This document shows positions 23,246 to 54,411 of a stretch of 64,000 bases of DNA, piece after piece. Position 1 is the first letter of the stretch. Each line of letters begins with the position of its first letter. Made by a program: the position numbers and the translations under genes. The notes under the pieces were generated by a model, which saw nothing but the letters and a program-made list of their open reading frames with translations, did no database searches and was not told the origin of the DNA. Origin of the DNA: Ceratodon purpureus (taxonomy: Eukaryota; Streptophyta; Bryopsida; Pseudoditrichales; Ditrichaceae); the NCBI GenBank assembly GCA_014871385.1, contig CM026426.1, positions 21,566,573 to 21,630,572 on the forward strand, read 5' to 3'.

Positions 23246-23623
23246 ATGGCTGAAGAAGACATAGCCGGCCTGTCGGAGGTTAGGAATGTAACAGAAGGAA
23301 CTTCGTCGCAGAATTGTGATTGGGAAGAAAATGAGGGATTCAGCATTTCCAATAGTTCTCGTCCAACACCAGTGAATGTTTCAAAGGGGAGTTTGTTATC
23401 AGGGAAATTTTCATTTCGATCATGTGGTATATCCACTGATAGAAATGATAAACTGGAAGGGTTCAGTGATAGCATTGTGCGCCAGCTCACTCCAGGCACA
23501 TTGTCATCCGAGGGGGACCTTTGCTCCGCCACTTCTAAGAAACGGAAGCGTGAGGGCCCCAAATTTGAGTATTCTGAGGGGTTGTTTACTTCTTGTTCCC
23601 GTGACATTAATCCCGAACAGTAT

Positions 23624-23748
23624 TGATACCCGTTACCTAACCCTAATTAGGGTTCTACTGCTAAACCTAGTCGGATACTCATATATGTATATATTCTCCT
23701 ACTTTTGAATACATCGCCCTCTTGAGCTTCCGCTTATCCAAGTTAACA
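23624..23748 (+). repeat. copia 5' LTR
   Basis: 125 bp, TGATACCCG..GTTAACA. It contains a perfect 16-bp palindrome AACCCTAATTAGGGTT made of two inverted telo-box-like words, and a TATATAT stretch in mid LTR that could serve as a TATA box. Confidence -1.
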
Positions 23749-23760
23749 TGGTATCAGAGC
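23749..23760 (+). promoter_or_regulatory. Primer binding site (initiator tRNA-Met type)
   Basis: TGGTATCAGAGC directly follows the 5' LTR. This is the usual plant copia primer site complementary to the 3' end of initiator tRNA-Met. Confidence -1.
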
Positions 23761-23821: not shown

Positions 23822-26800
23822 ATGGATCCTACTTTCCATGATCTCTCAAATTCAGCTAAGCTAGAAGGCCAGAGCAATTACTTACTATGGAGCTATAGAG
23901 TTAAGATGCTCTTGATGTAGGAAAACTTGTGGAGATATATCTCACCTGCCCCCACTTCAAGCCCCGATGGAACAGATTCGAGCAGCGCAGACTCCGAATC
24001 CGCCACCACCTCAGTCATCGGAGCCGGTACTTCTAAGGGACCTGTCTGCGCCTCCAAGACGTCTGCTGGTGCACCTCCTAATGACGATGCAGAACGAAGG
24101 ATTCGTGCCTGCAGGATCATCACCTCAACGGTAAAGGACCATATCATTTTACACGTTCTTCATTTTACAGACCTTCTAGCTATTTGGACAAAATTAAAAA
24201 CCATGTATGATGTTCAAAGCCCTTCAAGGCGACTTTCCTTGAAAGAAAAACTGTATTCATTTAGAATGCATGAAGGGAAATCCCTAGATTCCCATCTCTA
24301 GGATACAAATTCGATTGTTACTCAGCTTGCTAGTCTAGGAGTCTCAATCCAGGATGAGGATTTGGTTGACCAAATGCTCTCAAGTCTTCCAAAAAGTTGG
24401 AATACTTTTAAGTCCATTCAGAAGAGTAGGGAAAGATCACCTAGCTTCTCAGAACTGCAAGGGCTTATGTTGCATGAAGAAAGCTATAAGCTTGCAAACA
24501 AACACCTAGAGTCCGAACAGATTATGTACCTGAGAGGGGGAGACCGTTACAATCGACCTCCTCCATTCCGTGACAACCGTGGACGCTTCAACAGAAGTCG
24601 CGATCGAGGCCGCTACCAGTCCTCACGCACTTGCCGCCTCTGTGGATGCACAGGTCATACAAAAGGTGACTACAACATCACGAAACTGGAGACTCAAATT
24701 CGTGACCTCCAAAGTCAATTATCACGACTGAAGGGACCCTCCAGTTCCTACGCAACTATTGACGAACCTGAGGACGACTTCGACGACGAAGACTAGGAAG
24801 CCGCATTAAACGCCTGTATGACAGTCTTCACCATAGACGAGGAACCCTGGTTCCTCGACAGTGGTGCAAGTTCTCACGTTACAGGAACACCGGGTCTTCT
24901 TTCTCATACTTCGTTCTCGCCCATAGTTAGCATCAGAACAGCTGCAGGGCAGACTTTACCTGTAGCAAACAAAGGAATTGTTCAATTCAGAGATTCTGCA
25001 GTAAAGAGTGTTCATGACGTTTTATATGTCCCAGGCGTAAAAACAAACTTACTATCTGTAGGTCGATTCGCAGGTTTAGGGCACACAATAGTCTTTACCT
25101 CTTCAAGTTGCATCATTTATGATATAGACTATCCTACCAAGGTATTCCTACAGGCACAAAGAGATAAACGGACCAAGTTTTACCGCCTGGAAGCTACGCC
25201 TATACTACCAACAAGACCTATTCTACTTACAAGTCACACTACCCCAGTTTCCATGGAAACTCTCGAACTGTGGCACAAAAGGTTAGCCCAAGTACATTAA
25301 CAAGGCCTGTACCTTTTAACCAACAAAGGCTTGGTCAATGGCATACCTCGTCTACCCTATCATAAAAGGCCCTGTACCAGCTGTGCGCTCGAAAAATCCC
25401 ACCGGCAAGTATTTCCCAAGCTCCGTTCTACTTTCTCAAGCGCACCTCTCGAACTGGTCCACAGCGATTTATACGGGCCGCTTCCAACTCCCACAAGACA
25501 CCACTGTGAGTACATCCTCACGTTCATAGATGATTTCTCACAAAAGACATGGATATATTTCCTTTCTCACAAGTCTCAGACTTTAAGTTTTTTCTCTCAA
25601 TTCAAACAACTCGTAAAGACTCCATCTAGAAAGATTAAAACTCCGAGAACAGACAGAGGGGAAGAGTACCTCTCTGATGAGTTCAAAAAATTCTGCGCAC
25701 TCCACGGAATTGCTCGCCAGCTTACTGATGGCTACAGTCCACAGTAGAACGGAGTCGTTGAGAGAAAGAACCGACATATTCTGGAGGGGATACGAAGTGT
25801 AGCTGCAGGAACCCAAATTCCGAGGTTCCTATGGGACTGAATCGCGAAGACAGTAAACTATATCCAGAATCGCCTTCCCCATCGTGCGCTCCACCTGCAA
25901 ACCCCCGAAGAAGTCTTCACAGGTCAGAAACCTAATCTCTCCCATCTTCGGATCATAGGTTGCTTAGCGTTTTTCCATATTCCAAAAGAAAAACGAACCA
26001 AATTAGATGCAAAGGCAATACCTACCTTGTTCCTTGGATATGATGAGCAATCCAAGGCGTACCGATGTTACAACCCCCAGACTCGGCAAATAGTAATCAG
26101 CAGAGATGTCGAATTCATGGAATCCAAATTCACATACGTGCCTGCTTCATCATCACATAGCCCCACTGAACCTTTAGACTCTTTAGATATTCTCTCTCCA
26201 TCAACATTACAATTACCAGAACCTGAGCCTACGAAAACAGTCAATACTTCCAGTTTAGACAACTTACCACCTGCTCACGAGCCGCTGTCTCCTTCTCCTC
26301 CGCAGTCTCCCATAGTACCTGTCCCTTCATCCACACAACCACCACACGTGGAATTAGAAAACACAATAGCTTTATTGAGAAGAAGTACTCGCCTGAGACC
26401 TCCAAATATAAAACTAGGCGATTACTACGTTTATATGACTGAAGATTATCCCGACTGCACCCCACTAGCGGAACCCTACTCTGCTCCACCTGCACAAGAC
26501 CACTCAACCAGTTCGGATCAGAACCCGACATTTACCCAAGCCATGCAGGATCCGCTCTCGCAGCAAGCCATGCAAGACGAAATGACTAGTATTTATTAGA
26601 ACAAAACCTGGCAGTTGGAAGACTTAGCTCCAGGAGTTCGACCAATTACCTGTCGATGGGTCTTCAGGACAAAGCCCGGAATAGGTACCTCACTGGACAT
26701 CAAGAAAGCGCGTCTCGTAGCTCGCGGATTCGAGCAGAAACAGGGATTAGACTACAAAGAGACCTTCGCGCCCGTCATTAAGTGGGTTACAATTAGAACC

Positions 26801-28117
26801 GTAGTGGCCGTGGCTGCTACAAAGAGATGGAACGTCCATCATATGGACGTTCGGACTGCTTTTCTCCATGGCGTCCTAAAGAAGGACTTTTACATGGTTC
26901 AACCTCCTGGATTCAAAATTCCTGGAAAAATGAACAAAGTTTGCAAACTGCTCAAGTCACTCTATGGATTGAAACAATCCCCGATGGCATGGTACGATAA
27001 GATTGACTCAAGCCTTCGCAGTGTAGGACTCAAGCGTAGTTCATTTGACCCTAATCTTTATTACCTTCACAAGGGAAAAGACACCCTGTTAGTACTCCTC
27101 TACGTGGATGACTTCTTTATTACAGGCAGTTGTATAAATCTCATTGGCTGGATAAAAACCTATCTCAGAACAGCTTTCGACATGACAGACCTTGGCACTA
27201 TTAGAAAATACCTAGGGATTACAATTGAATACTTACCCCACGGCATTTTTCTGCATCAAAGGGATTACGCTCTCTCAATCATCCAAGAATTTCTGCCCAC
27301 AGAATTCCATTCTGCTCGCGTCCCTCTTCCCGCAGGTCTCCTTCTTCTCTCCAACACAGGCACTCCTCCTGAAGATAGCACACGGTATTCTATGTTAGTG
27401 GGAAAACTAATTTTCTTGACTATAACTCGACCAAACCTATCCTACGCAGTTAATCGCATAGCATCTCATATGTCTTCTCCGCAGCAAGCTCACTTAGATG
27501 CCGCTCACAACATCCTCAAATATCTCAAACATAGCTATGATTATGGTATCCTATTCCATCACGACGTACCTTTAACCCTCGAAGGATTCACGAACGCAGA
27601 CTGAGGGAGTTGTCCAGAAACGCGCAGGTCAATTGGAGCATACCTCTTCAAAGCTGCTAGCGGACCTATCAGCTGGATGAGCAAACGCCAATTAACCATA
27701 TCCCGTTCTTCTACGGAATCCGAGTATAAAGCCTTATCCGATGGAGTCCAAGAGGCCGTCTGGATCTCCAGACTTCTAGTTGAACTCCAGGTACTCTCTC
27801 CATCACCAACATCGATTCATCCAACCAATTCAGAGATTAGAACCGAGTTAGAACCTAATCTCGTAATTCAATGCGACAACCAGTCTGCAATTAAACTTGC
27901 AAAAAACCCAGTGTTTCACGCTAGAAGCAAGCATATCGAAATTCATCATCACTTTATTCGTGAGAGAATGCTAGAGGGGGAAATTGGGTTACAATTCATC
28001 AGCACGTCTCAGCAGCCTGCTGATATCCTAACAAAGCCATTAGGTCGAATAAAATTCGAACACCACAGGAACGACCTAAACCTCTATAGCCTACAGTTCT
28101 TACAGGGTAGAAATTAG
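23822..28117 (+). pseudogene. copia gag-pol polyprotein, one frame with eight in-frame stops
   Basis: The ATG at 23822 and the TAG at 28115-28117 bound 1,431 codons in one frame with no indel. Order: gag; a zinc knuckle near 24631 whose last Cys is replaced by Tyr (CRLCGCTGHTKGDY); protease WFLDSGASSH (24845); integrase zinc-binding CTSCALEKSH (25376), LVHSDLYGP and YSPQ-stop-NGVVERKN; the copia FLGYDEQSKAY motif (26030); RT with ARLVARGFEQ, HMDVRTAFLHG and YVDDFFITG (27102); RNase H with SSTESEYKAL and ADILTKPL (28020). Stops: TAG 23918, 24299, 24794, 25745, 26597; TAA 25298; TGA 25838 and 27602. Several fall at normally conserved Gln or Trp positions, so each fits a single C-to-T or G-to-A transition. 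The element cannot make a full polyprotein unaided. Confidence -1.
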
Positions 28118-28122
28118 AGAAT

Positions 28123-28320
28123 CTAACCTCCTGCGATGTAGCATAACGCTTCCTCTAAACTTCCAAAGGATTTAAATTCTACTCCCGGGTACCTGTGCAC
28201 TTGCGACTTACAGCTACCCCAATCCCTAAAAATCCCAATACATCTCCCTTTTCTAACCGCATAGAACTTTCCCAAAACCCTTCGCTCGTCAGTATATGTG
28301 CTACGCTTCGGCTCAATCAT
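28123..28320 (-). CDS. Antisense small gene: RNase H1-type hybrid-binding (viroplasmin/Cauli_VI) domain
   Basis: 65 codons from ATG 28320-28318 to TAG 28125-28123. The protein contains FYAVRKGRCIGIFRDW.. CKSQVHRYPGVEFKSF.. EEALCYIAGG. This matches the N-terminal RNA/DNA hybrid-binding domain of eukaryotic RNase H1 (also called the viroplasmin or Cauli_VI domain): FYAVR-GR-G-F-W, C..QV..(Y/F)P, FK-F and EEA spacing. Family knowledge: this domain binds RNA:DNA hybrids or dsRNA. It is complete but unattached to a catalytic RNase H domain. It lies inside the copia element, convergent with pol, and the two stop codons are separated by 5 bp. The open frame extends upstream to 28494 without a better ATG. 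A possible acceptor (TATTCCTGTAG) lies at about 28354, so a spliced 5' exon is possible. Confidence -1.
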   Translation of the reverse strand: MIEPKRSTYTDERRVLGKFYAVRKGRCIGIFRDWGSCKSQVHRYPGVEFKSFGSLEEALCYIAGG

Positions 28321-28886
28321 CCCCAAGATCTCCCCAGCTTCATCAACCTGACTCCAACCTACAGGAATAGAAGACAACGCAAGTTGGAGCATCAGTGGAC
28401 AGGATACAAGAAACAAGCAATGGCCGCGAGACAAGCACAACAGAATACAACCACAAGCAAGGGCCGCGAAGACTGCGACCAAGAACAGAGACAATCACAT
28501 TTCAAAGTGGCCGAACGACTCTTATTAGCGCAGCACAAGCTCTATGACGGACATGGTGCACCCAACAAACGACGCACCAGCAAATGATCACGGGGCATGA
28601 ACACTCACCTACTACCGAGACGCGATGATGCCGAGCCCTCCCAGCAGAAATCTCCAACCCCGAGGGTTCCTCCATTTCAACTATCACCTCCTCGTTCCTC
28701 AATCGCCCGGCAAGTACATAATCTGCCGCCTCGCAGATAGCATTGCAGATACAACAACACAACGCCGCCACCGACCGGATCAGAGAAACAACGTGGTCAA
28801 CCCACGTCGCGCGACATTGATTGCCCCGACCGCGTACCGCCATAGTTAGGTGTAAATACAATCTGCAAAACTGCCGTTTTTGGCTT
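28321..28886. other. Extra copia segment between pol and 3' LTR
   Basis: About 570 bp upstream (antisense) of the hybrid-binding-domain gene. Long frames on both strands (28502-28861 minus, 28195-28587 plus) carry no recognised domain. It could be the promoter or 5' region of the antisense gene, or captured sequence. Confidence -1.
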
Positions 28887-28895
28887 GAAAGGGGG
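28887..28895 (+). promoter_or_regulatory. copia polypurine tract
   Basis: GAAAGGGGG lies three bases before the 3' LTR, the expected plus-strand primer for LTR retrotransposons. Confidence -1.
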
Positions 28896-28898
28896 TAT

Positions 28899-29023
28899 TG
28901 ATACCCGTTACCTAACCCTAATTAGGGTTCTACCGCTAAACCTAGTCGGCTACTCATTTATGTATATATTCTCCTACTCTCGAATACATCGCCCTCTTGA
29001 GCTTCCGCTTATCCAAGTTAACA
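28899..29023 (+). repeat. copia 3' LTR
   Basis: 125 bp matching the 5' LTR with five substitutions counted by eye, three of them T in the 5' copy against C in this copy. The telo-box palindrome is conserved. Confidence -1.
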
Positions 29024-29352
29024 CTGAAGGAACACAACCAGGTTCCAAAGATTTTGATGATGAAGAGAAGCAGAGAGAGTATGAGGACCACCTTAGGACT
29101 CTAATAGAATCTAGGGAAATTCTATACTCCAAACTGTCTTTTGAAGAGTTTTTGTGCCAGGTACCAACTGAAGATACCGAGTTTGGACCCGAAGATGATC
29201 TGGACAGCATATACGCTAAATGCATGAATCTCCCATATAATTGGAAGACGTGTATGCAAGAGTATCGATTGAAGTCAAATCGGTATTTGGAGGTGAAGGC
29301 TAGGAAGAAAATCAAATTTCCAGATCTTATTCCTCATAGTAGAAAGAAATGA

Positions 29353-53108: not shown

Positions 53109-54411
53109 GGGGTCTCTCTAAATCCCCCTACGAGCGTTGCAGGGGGGCAGCCTTCCACACGGGCAGCGAGGCTCTCGGATGAGCCCCTGTCGAGCCCCTT
53201 CCACGGTTCTCATCCGCCGTTCTCCCCTTCCCGCCCATTCTGCCACCCCCTCTCTCCCTCCGAAGCTCCTCTCCCCGCACTCGCTTTCCCGCACCTGCCC
53301 TCTCCCCGCAGCGCCGCTCCGCTCCTCGCCCTCGCACTCTCCTCCTCAGCGCCGCTCCGCTCCGCTCCTCCCCCGCACCTCGCCCCTGCACCTCCCCCCT
53401 GCACCTCGCCCCTGCACCTTGCCCCTTGTACATGCTTCACCGCTCCTCGCCTCTGCACCTACTCTTCTGCTCCACCCCGAAGGCTCCCCGCAGCAACTCA
53501 AACACCCCATATTCTATACACACATAAAATTTTCAAGAGACTTGTGTTCATTCCACAAATTCAATAAACTGCGACAGAGTTAGATCAAGGCTCTTGTTTA
53601 CAACCGTAAATTGTTCTCCTTCAACTCAGCTTGACAGAAGTTTAATCATCTGCAAACATTTCACAGTTCCTCCGATATATTTACTTTGAAGATTCATTCA
53701 CGCAAGACTCTGCTCAGACGATGACCAGGCTCGTCTATCGATTGTTATGTGATTGTCAACTTGTGGACTTGTAATTTGTCTTCTCCGAATTCAACTTGCA
53801 GTATGTTGGTAAGGACCAAGTTGCATCTTCCAGTACTTGAAGGTGGTCTAGGTTGAATCATCTTTTCGGTGTTGTATGATCATCAGGTTTTCCATCAAAG
53901 AGGAAGAGCCTCAATCGATCAAGAGTCTGATGAAGTGGGTTGAGCTATGGAGTAGACTGGCGCTGTGATCTAGATACCACTTGCCACCATTAATGTCGAC
54001 TTTGCTCCGAGGTGGAGTTCGTGATTCTTGAAGAGAACAGGTTGGTAAGTAGCGGCTTCTTTCTAGAGGAAGAGAGCTTCGACGTTGGTGTTTTGGATGG
54101 TGGTGTGAGAAGCGGCGAGGAGCGGTGGTGCAGGGGCGAGGTGCAGGGGAGGAGCGGAGCGGAGCGGCGCTGAGGAGGAGAGTGCGAGGGCGAGGAGCGG
54201 AGCGGCGCTGCGGGGAAAGGGCAGGTGCGGGAAAGCGAGTGCGGGGAGAGGAGCTTCGGAGGGAGAGAGGGGGTGGCAGAATGGGCGGGAAGGGGAGAAC
54301 GGCGGATGAGAACCGTGGAAGGGGCTCGACAGGGGCTCATCCGAGAGCCTCGCTGCCCGTGTGGAAGGCTGCCCCCCTACAACGCTCGTAGGGGGGATTT
54401 AGAGAGACCCC
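53109..54411. repeat. Large GC-rich inverted repeat (arms about 300-350 bp, loop about 650 bp)
   Basis: Left arm 53109-53455 and right arm 54111-54411 are near-identical in inverted orientation. Both contain, for example, GGGGTCTCTCTAAATCC, ACGAGCGTTG, and the Cys/Arg/Pro-coding stretch that starts MSPCRAPSTVLIRRSP when read inward from either arm. The left arm has extra copies of a CCTCGCCCCTGCA unit. The intervening 53456-54110 is ordinary-GC single-copy sequence containing TGGTATCTAGATCAC on the minus strand, faintly like a retrotransposon primer site. Candidates are a foldback transposon or two inverted LTR or TIR fragments. Confidence -1.

Follow-up and report, generated by a model that had tools for sequence, protein, structure and literature searches.

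We propose that a Ty1/copia lineage of long terminal repeat (LTR) retrotransposons in the moss Ceratodon purpureus carries an accessory gene on its antisense strand, between pol and the 3′ LTR, and that the product of this gene ends in a hybrid-binding domain (HBD) of the type found in ribonuclease H1 (RNase H1). The gene was met in a 64,000-nucleotide stretch of contig CM026426.1 (contig C6 in what follows; the whole stretch is called the window), where it occupies the minus strand of a single copia element. We regard it as nearly certain that the antisense gene exists and is under purifying selection on its protein, and as very likely that it is, in general form, a genuine Ty1/copia accessory gene inherited with the element. 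Since selection has kept its protein, the gene is probably part of how these copia elements live. The case consists of the domain, its position and frame, and the conservation, constraint and co-inheritance of the gene across copies. The gene and its host element in the window are laid out as follows.

28123..28358, minus strand: predicted antisense exon 2, linker plus HBD, stop codon at 28123-28125 (Pfam, alignment, dN/dS)
28359..28608, minus strand: predicted spliceosomal intron, 250 nt, donor TAG/GTGAGT, acceptor CTATTCCTGTAG/G
28609..28843, minus strand: predicted antisense exon 1, ATG at 28843, hydrophobic segment VVSLIRSVAALCCCICNAI (six-copy alignment, profile)
23624..23748, plus strand: 5′ LTR, TG...CA, 125 bp, 5 mismatches to the 3′ LTR
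23749..23760, plus strand: primer binding site TGGTATCAGAGC (sequence read)
23825..28117, plus strand: gag-pol frame, copia type, dead copy (PF07727 and PF22936 over cut-off; PF14223 and PF13456 below)
28887..28895, plus strand: polypurine tract GAAAGGGGG (sequence read directly)
28899..29023, plus strand: 3′ LTR, 125 bp, 5 mismatches to the 5′ LTR

Read on the minus strand, positions 28123-28320 translate into 65 residues followed by a TAG stop, and an ATG-initiated form of the same frame extends to 28392, giving 89 residues. The initial annotation of this DNA, made from the letters alone, had called the product a textbook RNase H1 hybrid-binding domain and proposed a profile search as a check. 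When run, that search gave 66.6 bits (E 2.2e-18; cut-off 21) against PF01693 (Cauli_VI, ‘Ribonuclease H1 N-terminal domain’), and the frame also matches the RNase H1 HBD structures 1qhk (7e-11) and 3bsu (1e-10); these matches confirm the description and mean that the HBD frame is not a chance one. Its placing inside the LTRs and convergent with gag-pol is likewise confirmed by the coordinates; 5 bp separate the pol stop (28115-28117) from the antisense stop (28123-28125). The window element itself is dead, since its gag-pol holds eight premature in-frame stops before the final one. At that density (8 stops in ~1430 codons) the chance of 156 codons without a stop is ~0.42, so the stop-free HBD frame of this copy alone is no evidence, and the evidence for constraint comes from other copies.

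The 65-codon frame had been taken for a complete, stand-alone gene. That part of the initial annotation fell: the frame makes up most of exon 2, at its C-terminal side, in a predicted gene of two exons and 156 residues, and a stand-alone gene is ruled out by a six-copy alignment in which exon 1 and the intron ends are conserved upstream. When the donor (28608) and the acceptor (28358) that score highest in this region are paired, the ATG at 28843 comes into frame with the HBD; the predicted spliced 156-residue protein scores 65.1 bits against PF01693, and a CTGAT branch-like motif stands 37 nt before the end of the predicted intron. Across the six copies the donor GTGAGT does not vary, and both intron ends, GT and AG, are always kept. 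The alignment holds 20 gap events in the intron (4 of them multiples of three), none in exon 1 and one, of 3 nt, in exon 2, and pairwise comparison averages 77% identity in exon 1, 84% in exon 2 and 65% in the intron. Both exons are in frame in all six closest copies, five of which translate without an internal stop. Over the wider set of loci, the hydrophobic segment was found in a separate frame from the HBD at 38. The automatically chosen best GT-AG pair sometimes differs from the aligned pair (e.g. at loci L009, L010 and L012), and outside the six-copy alignment several exon joins are weak and two separate-frame loci give no join; we count no such join as established.

The arrangement recurs across the genome. 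Searching with the window LTR finds 14 places: six pairs (at least 78% identity), each with an HBD opposite to the element strand, and an inverted 71% pair on contig C5; one LTR pair, at C6:63.74-63.75 Mb, spans 13 kb. We also queried the genome with the HBD, scoring the best 150 of 240 candidates, and with the copia RNase H end of pol, scoring the best 150 of 649. A convergent copia RNase H region lies 11-384 bp from the HBD at 46 of the 48 HBD loci compared (none was found at L036 and L041), and a convergent HBD was listed beside 86 of the 93 scored pol ends that are at least 64% identical to that of the window; a same-strand HBD within 1.5 kb was found at none of the 150 scored pol ends. 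Grouped by pol-end identity, an HBD was listed within 1.2 kb at 11/12 ends (at least 80%), 51/54 (70-79%), 24/27 (64-69%), 7/28 (60-63%) and 4/29 (below that). Conversely, a listed RNase H end accompanies 97 of the 150 listed HBDs; of the other 53, some belong to a second, non-copia family considered below.

The fall in these figures below 64% identity (11/57 listed) could be read as showing that more distant copia elements lack the gene. We rejected this reading after fetching five pol ends without a listed HBD, namely two of the 7 unlisted at 64% or above and three (L064-L066) of the 46 unlisted below. All five carry an antisense HBD by profile (that of L056 being only a remnant), including the three from below 64%, and the low figure there is at least partly a sensitivity artefact, the 43 others in that class having been judged by listing alone. 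Among scored elements with an open pol (at least 1400 residues without an internal stop, at 64% identity or more; counted by hand) all 13 keep the HBD: it is listed for 12, in 11 of which it lacks an internal stop, and was found by profile in the thirteenth. Over 41 loci, distances between the reverse transcriptase and RNase H regions match distances between the HBDs (Mantel r 0.787, with 0 of 2000 permutations as high), which indicates that the gene has been inherited with pol over a long time. The main idea of the initial annotation, that the arrangement is integral to the element rather than a random neighbour, is thus supported in this genome by the close pol ends and by the six same-LTR copies, all of which hold the HBD in the same place; copies lacking the segment had been named as the finding that would speak against it.

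The scored HBD places are unevenly spread: 96 of the 150 lie on C6, the window's contig, which makes up 30.5% of the assembly (110,524,308 of 362,488,568 bases). HBD copies thus look enriched on C6, presumably a sex chromosome; published figures for C. purpureus are a genome of 358 or 349.5 Mb with sex chromosomes of ~30% (PMC13120521).

Constraint on the protein is seen in the ratio of nonsynonymous to synonymous change (dN/dS, by Nei-Gojobori over the spliced frame). Of 15 pairs in the window's family, 14 have values of 0.15-0.44 (Fisher P <= 0.0011), well below 1 and at odds with the neutral decay that the initial annotation had offered as its other counter-sign. A second subfamily, whose gene is a single intronless frame without interruption, gives 0.21-0.35 in 13 of 15 pairs (P <= 0.015). 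Taken by part in four pairs, constraint is significant in exon 1 in 4/4, in the HBD in 3/4 and in the linker in 2/4. Variable sites in the intron show no third-position excess (P 0.94). Constraint is stronger at the RNase H end of pol than on the antisense gene, with 0.03-0.19 in six pairs.

In the product, of about 145-157 residues, a short tail is followed by a conserved hydrophobic segment and a variable linker, with the HBD at the C-terminus. The hydrophobic segment has an SVAAL-like core and a Kyte-Doolittle maximum of 2.04-2.37 over 19 residues in six proteins; a profile finds it at 54 of 60 loci, 16 of which seeded the profile, and exon 1 has no Pfam match at E 10. In the HBD, with human residue numbering anchored on W43 and gaps left out, the equivalents of Y29 (55/55), W43 (56/56) and F61 (54/54) are invariant over the 60 loci, that of F58 is F or Y in 55/57 and that of K59 is K or R in 51/54; Y29, W43, F58 and K59 are hybrid-contact residues of the human domain. 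A low-confidence single-sequence structure model places strands at 43-47, 50-55 and 71-74 and helices at 58-65 and 79-86, an order that matches beta-beta-alpha-beta-alpha. No RNase H catalytic domain is present in the antisense protein: the frame ends soon after the HBD and Pfam lists only PF01693. From this sequence, hybrid binding is the likely biochemical activity of the predicted protein. In the more distant copia families L064-L066 a CPSC- or CPNC-type cysteine pair precedes the HBD, and this was not seen in the window's family. The gene as first drawn was too short, and lacked both the predicted intron of the window's family and the second conserved part, the hydrophobic segment.

The gene is also found outside copia elements, a further departure from the first picture. 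Six loci (L036, L041 and L060-L063) share a dispersed repeat that carries the same hydrophobic-plus-HBD gene as a single 150-residue frame, with no copia reverse transcriptase or RNase H match. It is possible, if rather unlikely, that the HBD gene belonged originally to another repeat family, and either passed from it into the copia lineage or travels from family to family as a shared passenger. A fungal Helitron with a captured PF01693 gene (PMC4289320) offers a precedent for such movement; against it, the HBD distances track those of the reverse transcriptase and RNase H at the 41 copia loci, so that swapping within the lineage must be rare. Bacterial and phage HBDs are only distant cousins of the window HBD, and scans of IMG/VR with the HBD, the reverse transcriptase, the LTR and the alignment found no relative. 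A genome search with PF00075 for the host RNase H listed 150 of 220 candidates, element copies and any host gene among them being taken together. In five of the six second-family stretches there is all or part of a second open reading frame (ORF) that resembles a DNA methyltransferase, with no Pfam match over cut-off, and five of six have GAGCGTA repeats at one end. A CACTA element as carrier of this second copy type was considered and dropped; the neighbouring DUF4218 at L041 was uninformative, with 2048 first-look candidates in the genome.

How might such a gene serve a copia element? We suggest that a transcript is driven by an antisense promoter lying within or beside the 3′ LTR, because the antisense ATG lies 44 bp inside the polypurine tract; a TATA-like string occurs on both strands in 6/6 related 3′ LTRs, a weak sign since TATATA is its own reverse complement. 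In the window's family this transcript would be spliced; an intron in this orientation, opposite to that of the genomic RNA, can for that reason persist through retrotransposition. The hydrophobic segment may then tether the protein to a membrane or to other copies of itself, while the HBD would bind the RNA:DNA hybrids made in reverse transcription and, more weakly, double-stranded RNA (dsRNA); the bound protein could shield or organise these intermediates, as viroplasm proteins do. Published HBDs bind the RNA:DNA hybrid tightly and dsRNA more weakly, the yeast HBD preferring dsRNA (PMC7657459). A positive role in replication, via RNA:DNA intermediates, seems to us plausible, though a little short of an even chance. 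The fuller proposal, that an ancient, lineage-wide antisense gene, interrupted by an intron in many families, encodes a tethered viroplasmin whose HBD is anchored or clustered by the hydrophobic segment and which builds a replication compartment around these intermediates, as a module exchanged with the non-copia family, is put forward tentatively and is rather improbable as a whole.

Several observations weigh against parts of this account. As the gene is also present in a non-copia family, its role need not be confined to the replication of copia elements. The window element lacks a target-site duplication (the flanking 5-mers, AGTAT and CTGAA, differ), which we explain by an old or recombined copy. 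Because of shared branches, the pairs behind the dN/dS ranges are not independent of each other; for L010/L012, the closest pair, the ratio is 0.82, and for two close pairs of the second subfamily it is 0.55 and 0.59, none of these being significant, and the third-position excess of variable sites is weak (exon 1 P 0.024, exon 2 P 0.064). No hydrophobic segment was found by profile at 6 of the 60 loci, the equivalent of K60 in the HBD is S in 47/54, and the structure model is of low confidence (mean pLDDT, its predicted local accuracy score, 50.1). The splice sites were noticed by eye before they were scored with plant splice weights. The score of the splice model was matched by 5 of 2000 dinucleotide shuffles (513 gave no model) and, in a harsher control, by 20 of 1382 overlapping stretches of real sequence; by themselves the scores, the sites having been seen first, are only suggestive. 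The intron call rests mainly on the six-copy alignment, and splicing of an antisense transcript at 28608/28359 is a prediction. Copy L009 has one stop inside exon 1, and the hydrophobic segment and HBD share one frame at 16 of 60 loci (11 copia, 5 second family), so that the intron is not universal.

The main rivals to a replication role are silencing suppression and self-limitation. In the first, the protein would bind dsRNA or R-loops that form when both strands are transcribed, and would protect the element against small-RNA silencing. The antisense gene, if transcribed, would yield RNA complementary to the genomic RNA, and caulimovirus P6, with the same domain, is a silencing suppressor. 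HBDs do bind dsRNA, that of yeast more tightly than it binds the hybrid (PMC7657459), but the hydrophobic segment is left unexplained; we hold this explanation to be unlikely, about one step behind a passenger origin. Self-limitation, in which antisense RNA or a protein competing for hybrids lowers the element's own transposition in the manner of Ty1 copy-number control, would suit the antisense position of the gene, and a nuclease-less hybrid binder could block RNase H steps. Antisense RNAs of Ty1 can reduce retrotransposition (PMC12786077). Yet selection acts on the amino-acid sequence here, so that RNA alone is insufficient, and a purely inhibitory gene should be lost by selfish elements, when all 13 scored open-pol elements keep theirs; it is the least probable of the three so far. 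The null of the initial annotation, that one dead element picked up a host RNase H1 exon in an isolated event, has in its favour that the window copy is dead and that exon-like boundaries flank the HBD, but retains next to no probability and is ruled out in this genome by the six LTR-bearing copies, by the 86/93 close pol ends with 5/5 sampled exceptions also holding the HBD, by the dN/dS constraint, and by the matching distances of HBD and reverse transcriptase/RNase H.

As to the host element, the LTR pair, primer binding site, polypurine tract and copia-type reverse transcriptase (RVT_2) together fit the definition of a Ty1/copia LTR retrotransposon, as judged from sequence. The reverse transcriptase lies in the sense frame, where PF07727 matches at E 4e-44; the RNase H region scores 15.3 bits against PF13456, under the cut-off of 21.6, and is named by position and motifs. 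The primer binding site TGGTATCAGAGC is presumably complementary to the 3′ end of initiator tRNA-Met. Both LTRs hold the palindrome AACCCTAATTAGGGTT (23639-23654 and 28914-28929), exact in 5/6 related 3′ LTRs and with one mismatch in the sixth, which we take to be two back-to-back telo-box-like motifs. Two open frames on the same strand flank the element (23246-23626 and 29020-29352) and look like one host gene split by the insertion; they have no Pfam match at E 0.1. Elsewhere in the window, an inverted repeat (53124-53395 / 54124-54395; arms of 272 nt, 99% complementary and 728 nt apart) is a possible foldback element.

Antisense accessory genes of plant retrotransposons are described as having products without clear similarity to other proteins and a role that is undetermined (PMC7264820). 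In the moss gene the domain has a known and well-studied ligand, the RNA:DNA hybrid, the intermediate at the centre of reverse transcription; this makes it possible to test directly what an antisense retrotransposon gene does. The gene also appears to show a spliceosomal intron carried in a retrotransposon, by reversal relative to the genomic RNA. It further suggests why such genes go unnoticed: the main survey of plant elements demanded extra ORFs of at least 250 codons, and reported no domain conserved across most members of any single lineage (PMC6317226), so that the moss gene, shorter and often split, would have been missed; a moss expression study set antisense assemblies aside (PMC7466625). 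Our literature search, covering titles and the openings of abstracts with few subscription papers, met no report of an antisense HBD gene in a copia lineage, in keeping with the initial annotation, which knew of none, and the Helitron capture (PMC4289320) was the sole report of a captured PF01693 gene that it met.

Comparison with known systems places the gene among several of these. It shares with eukaryotic RNase H1 (1qhk, 3bsu) a sequence match of ~1e-10 and the hybrid-contact positions; unlike in RNase H1, the moss HBD is C-terminal, behind a hydrophobic segment, and no catalytic domain follows it. Caulimovirus P6 (viroplasmin) belongs to the same Pfam family, PF01693, and is likewise an accessory protein of a reverse-transcribing element. 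P6 is larger, is encoded by the virus in the sense direction, and serves to transactivate translation and to form inclusion bodies; the moss protein showed no further P6 region, exon 1 having no Pfam match. The shared viroplasmin domain raises the question of whether P6 and the moss gene answer a common need of plant reverse-transcribing elements.

In its plan the moss gene also recalls HBZ, the spliced antisense gene that HTLV-1 reads from its 3′ LTR. The likeness is of plan only, as the protein and the element are unrelated; for HTLV an antisense promoter within the 3′ LTR has been described (PMC7264820), where in the moss antisense transcription is a prediction. The capE gene of a Pleurotus ostreatus Helitron likewise puts PF01693 on a mobile element (PMC4289320). 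That case is one captured gene in one long copy of a fungal DNA element, whereas the moss gene is present in most scored copies, antisense and constrained.

The plant antisense genes known as aORF-3R or eORF-3′R include gene23 of Grande and those of RIRE2 and Retand; Grande and RIRE2 are gypsy elements. Like the moss gene, they lie antisense between pol and the 3′ LTR and are kept in most copies (PMC7264820, PMC11963269), and the moss gene shares with them a conserved protein. Retand, also gypsy, encodes an antisense domain, TRP28, that is nucleic-acid-related (PMC11963269), while the moss host is Ty1/copia and its domain an RNase H1 HBD; Pfam gives only PF01693 for the moss protein, and PF04195 (TRP28) was not found in it. 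The moss gene differs further from these plant genes in joining its HBD to a hydrophobic segment within 145-157 residues and, in the window's family, in its predicted intron.
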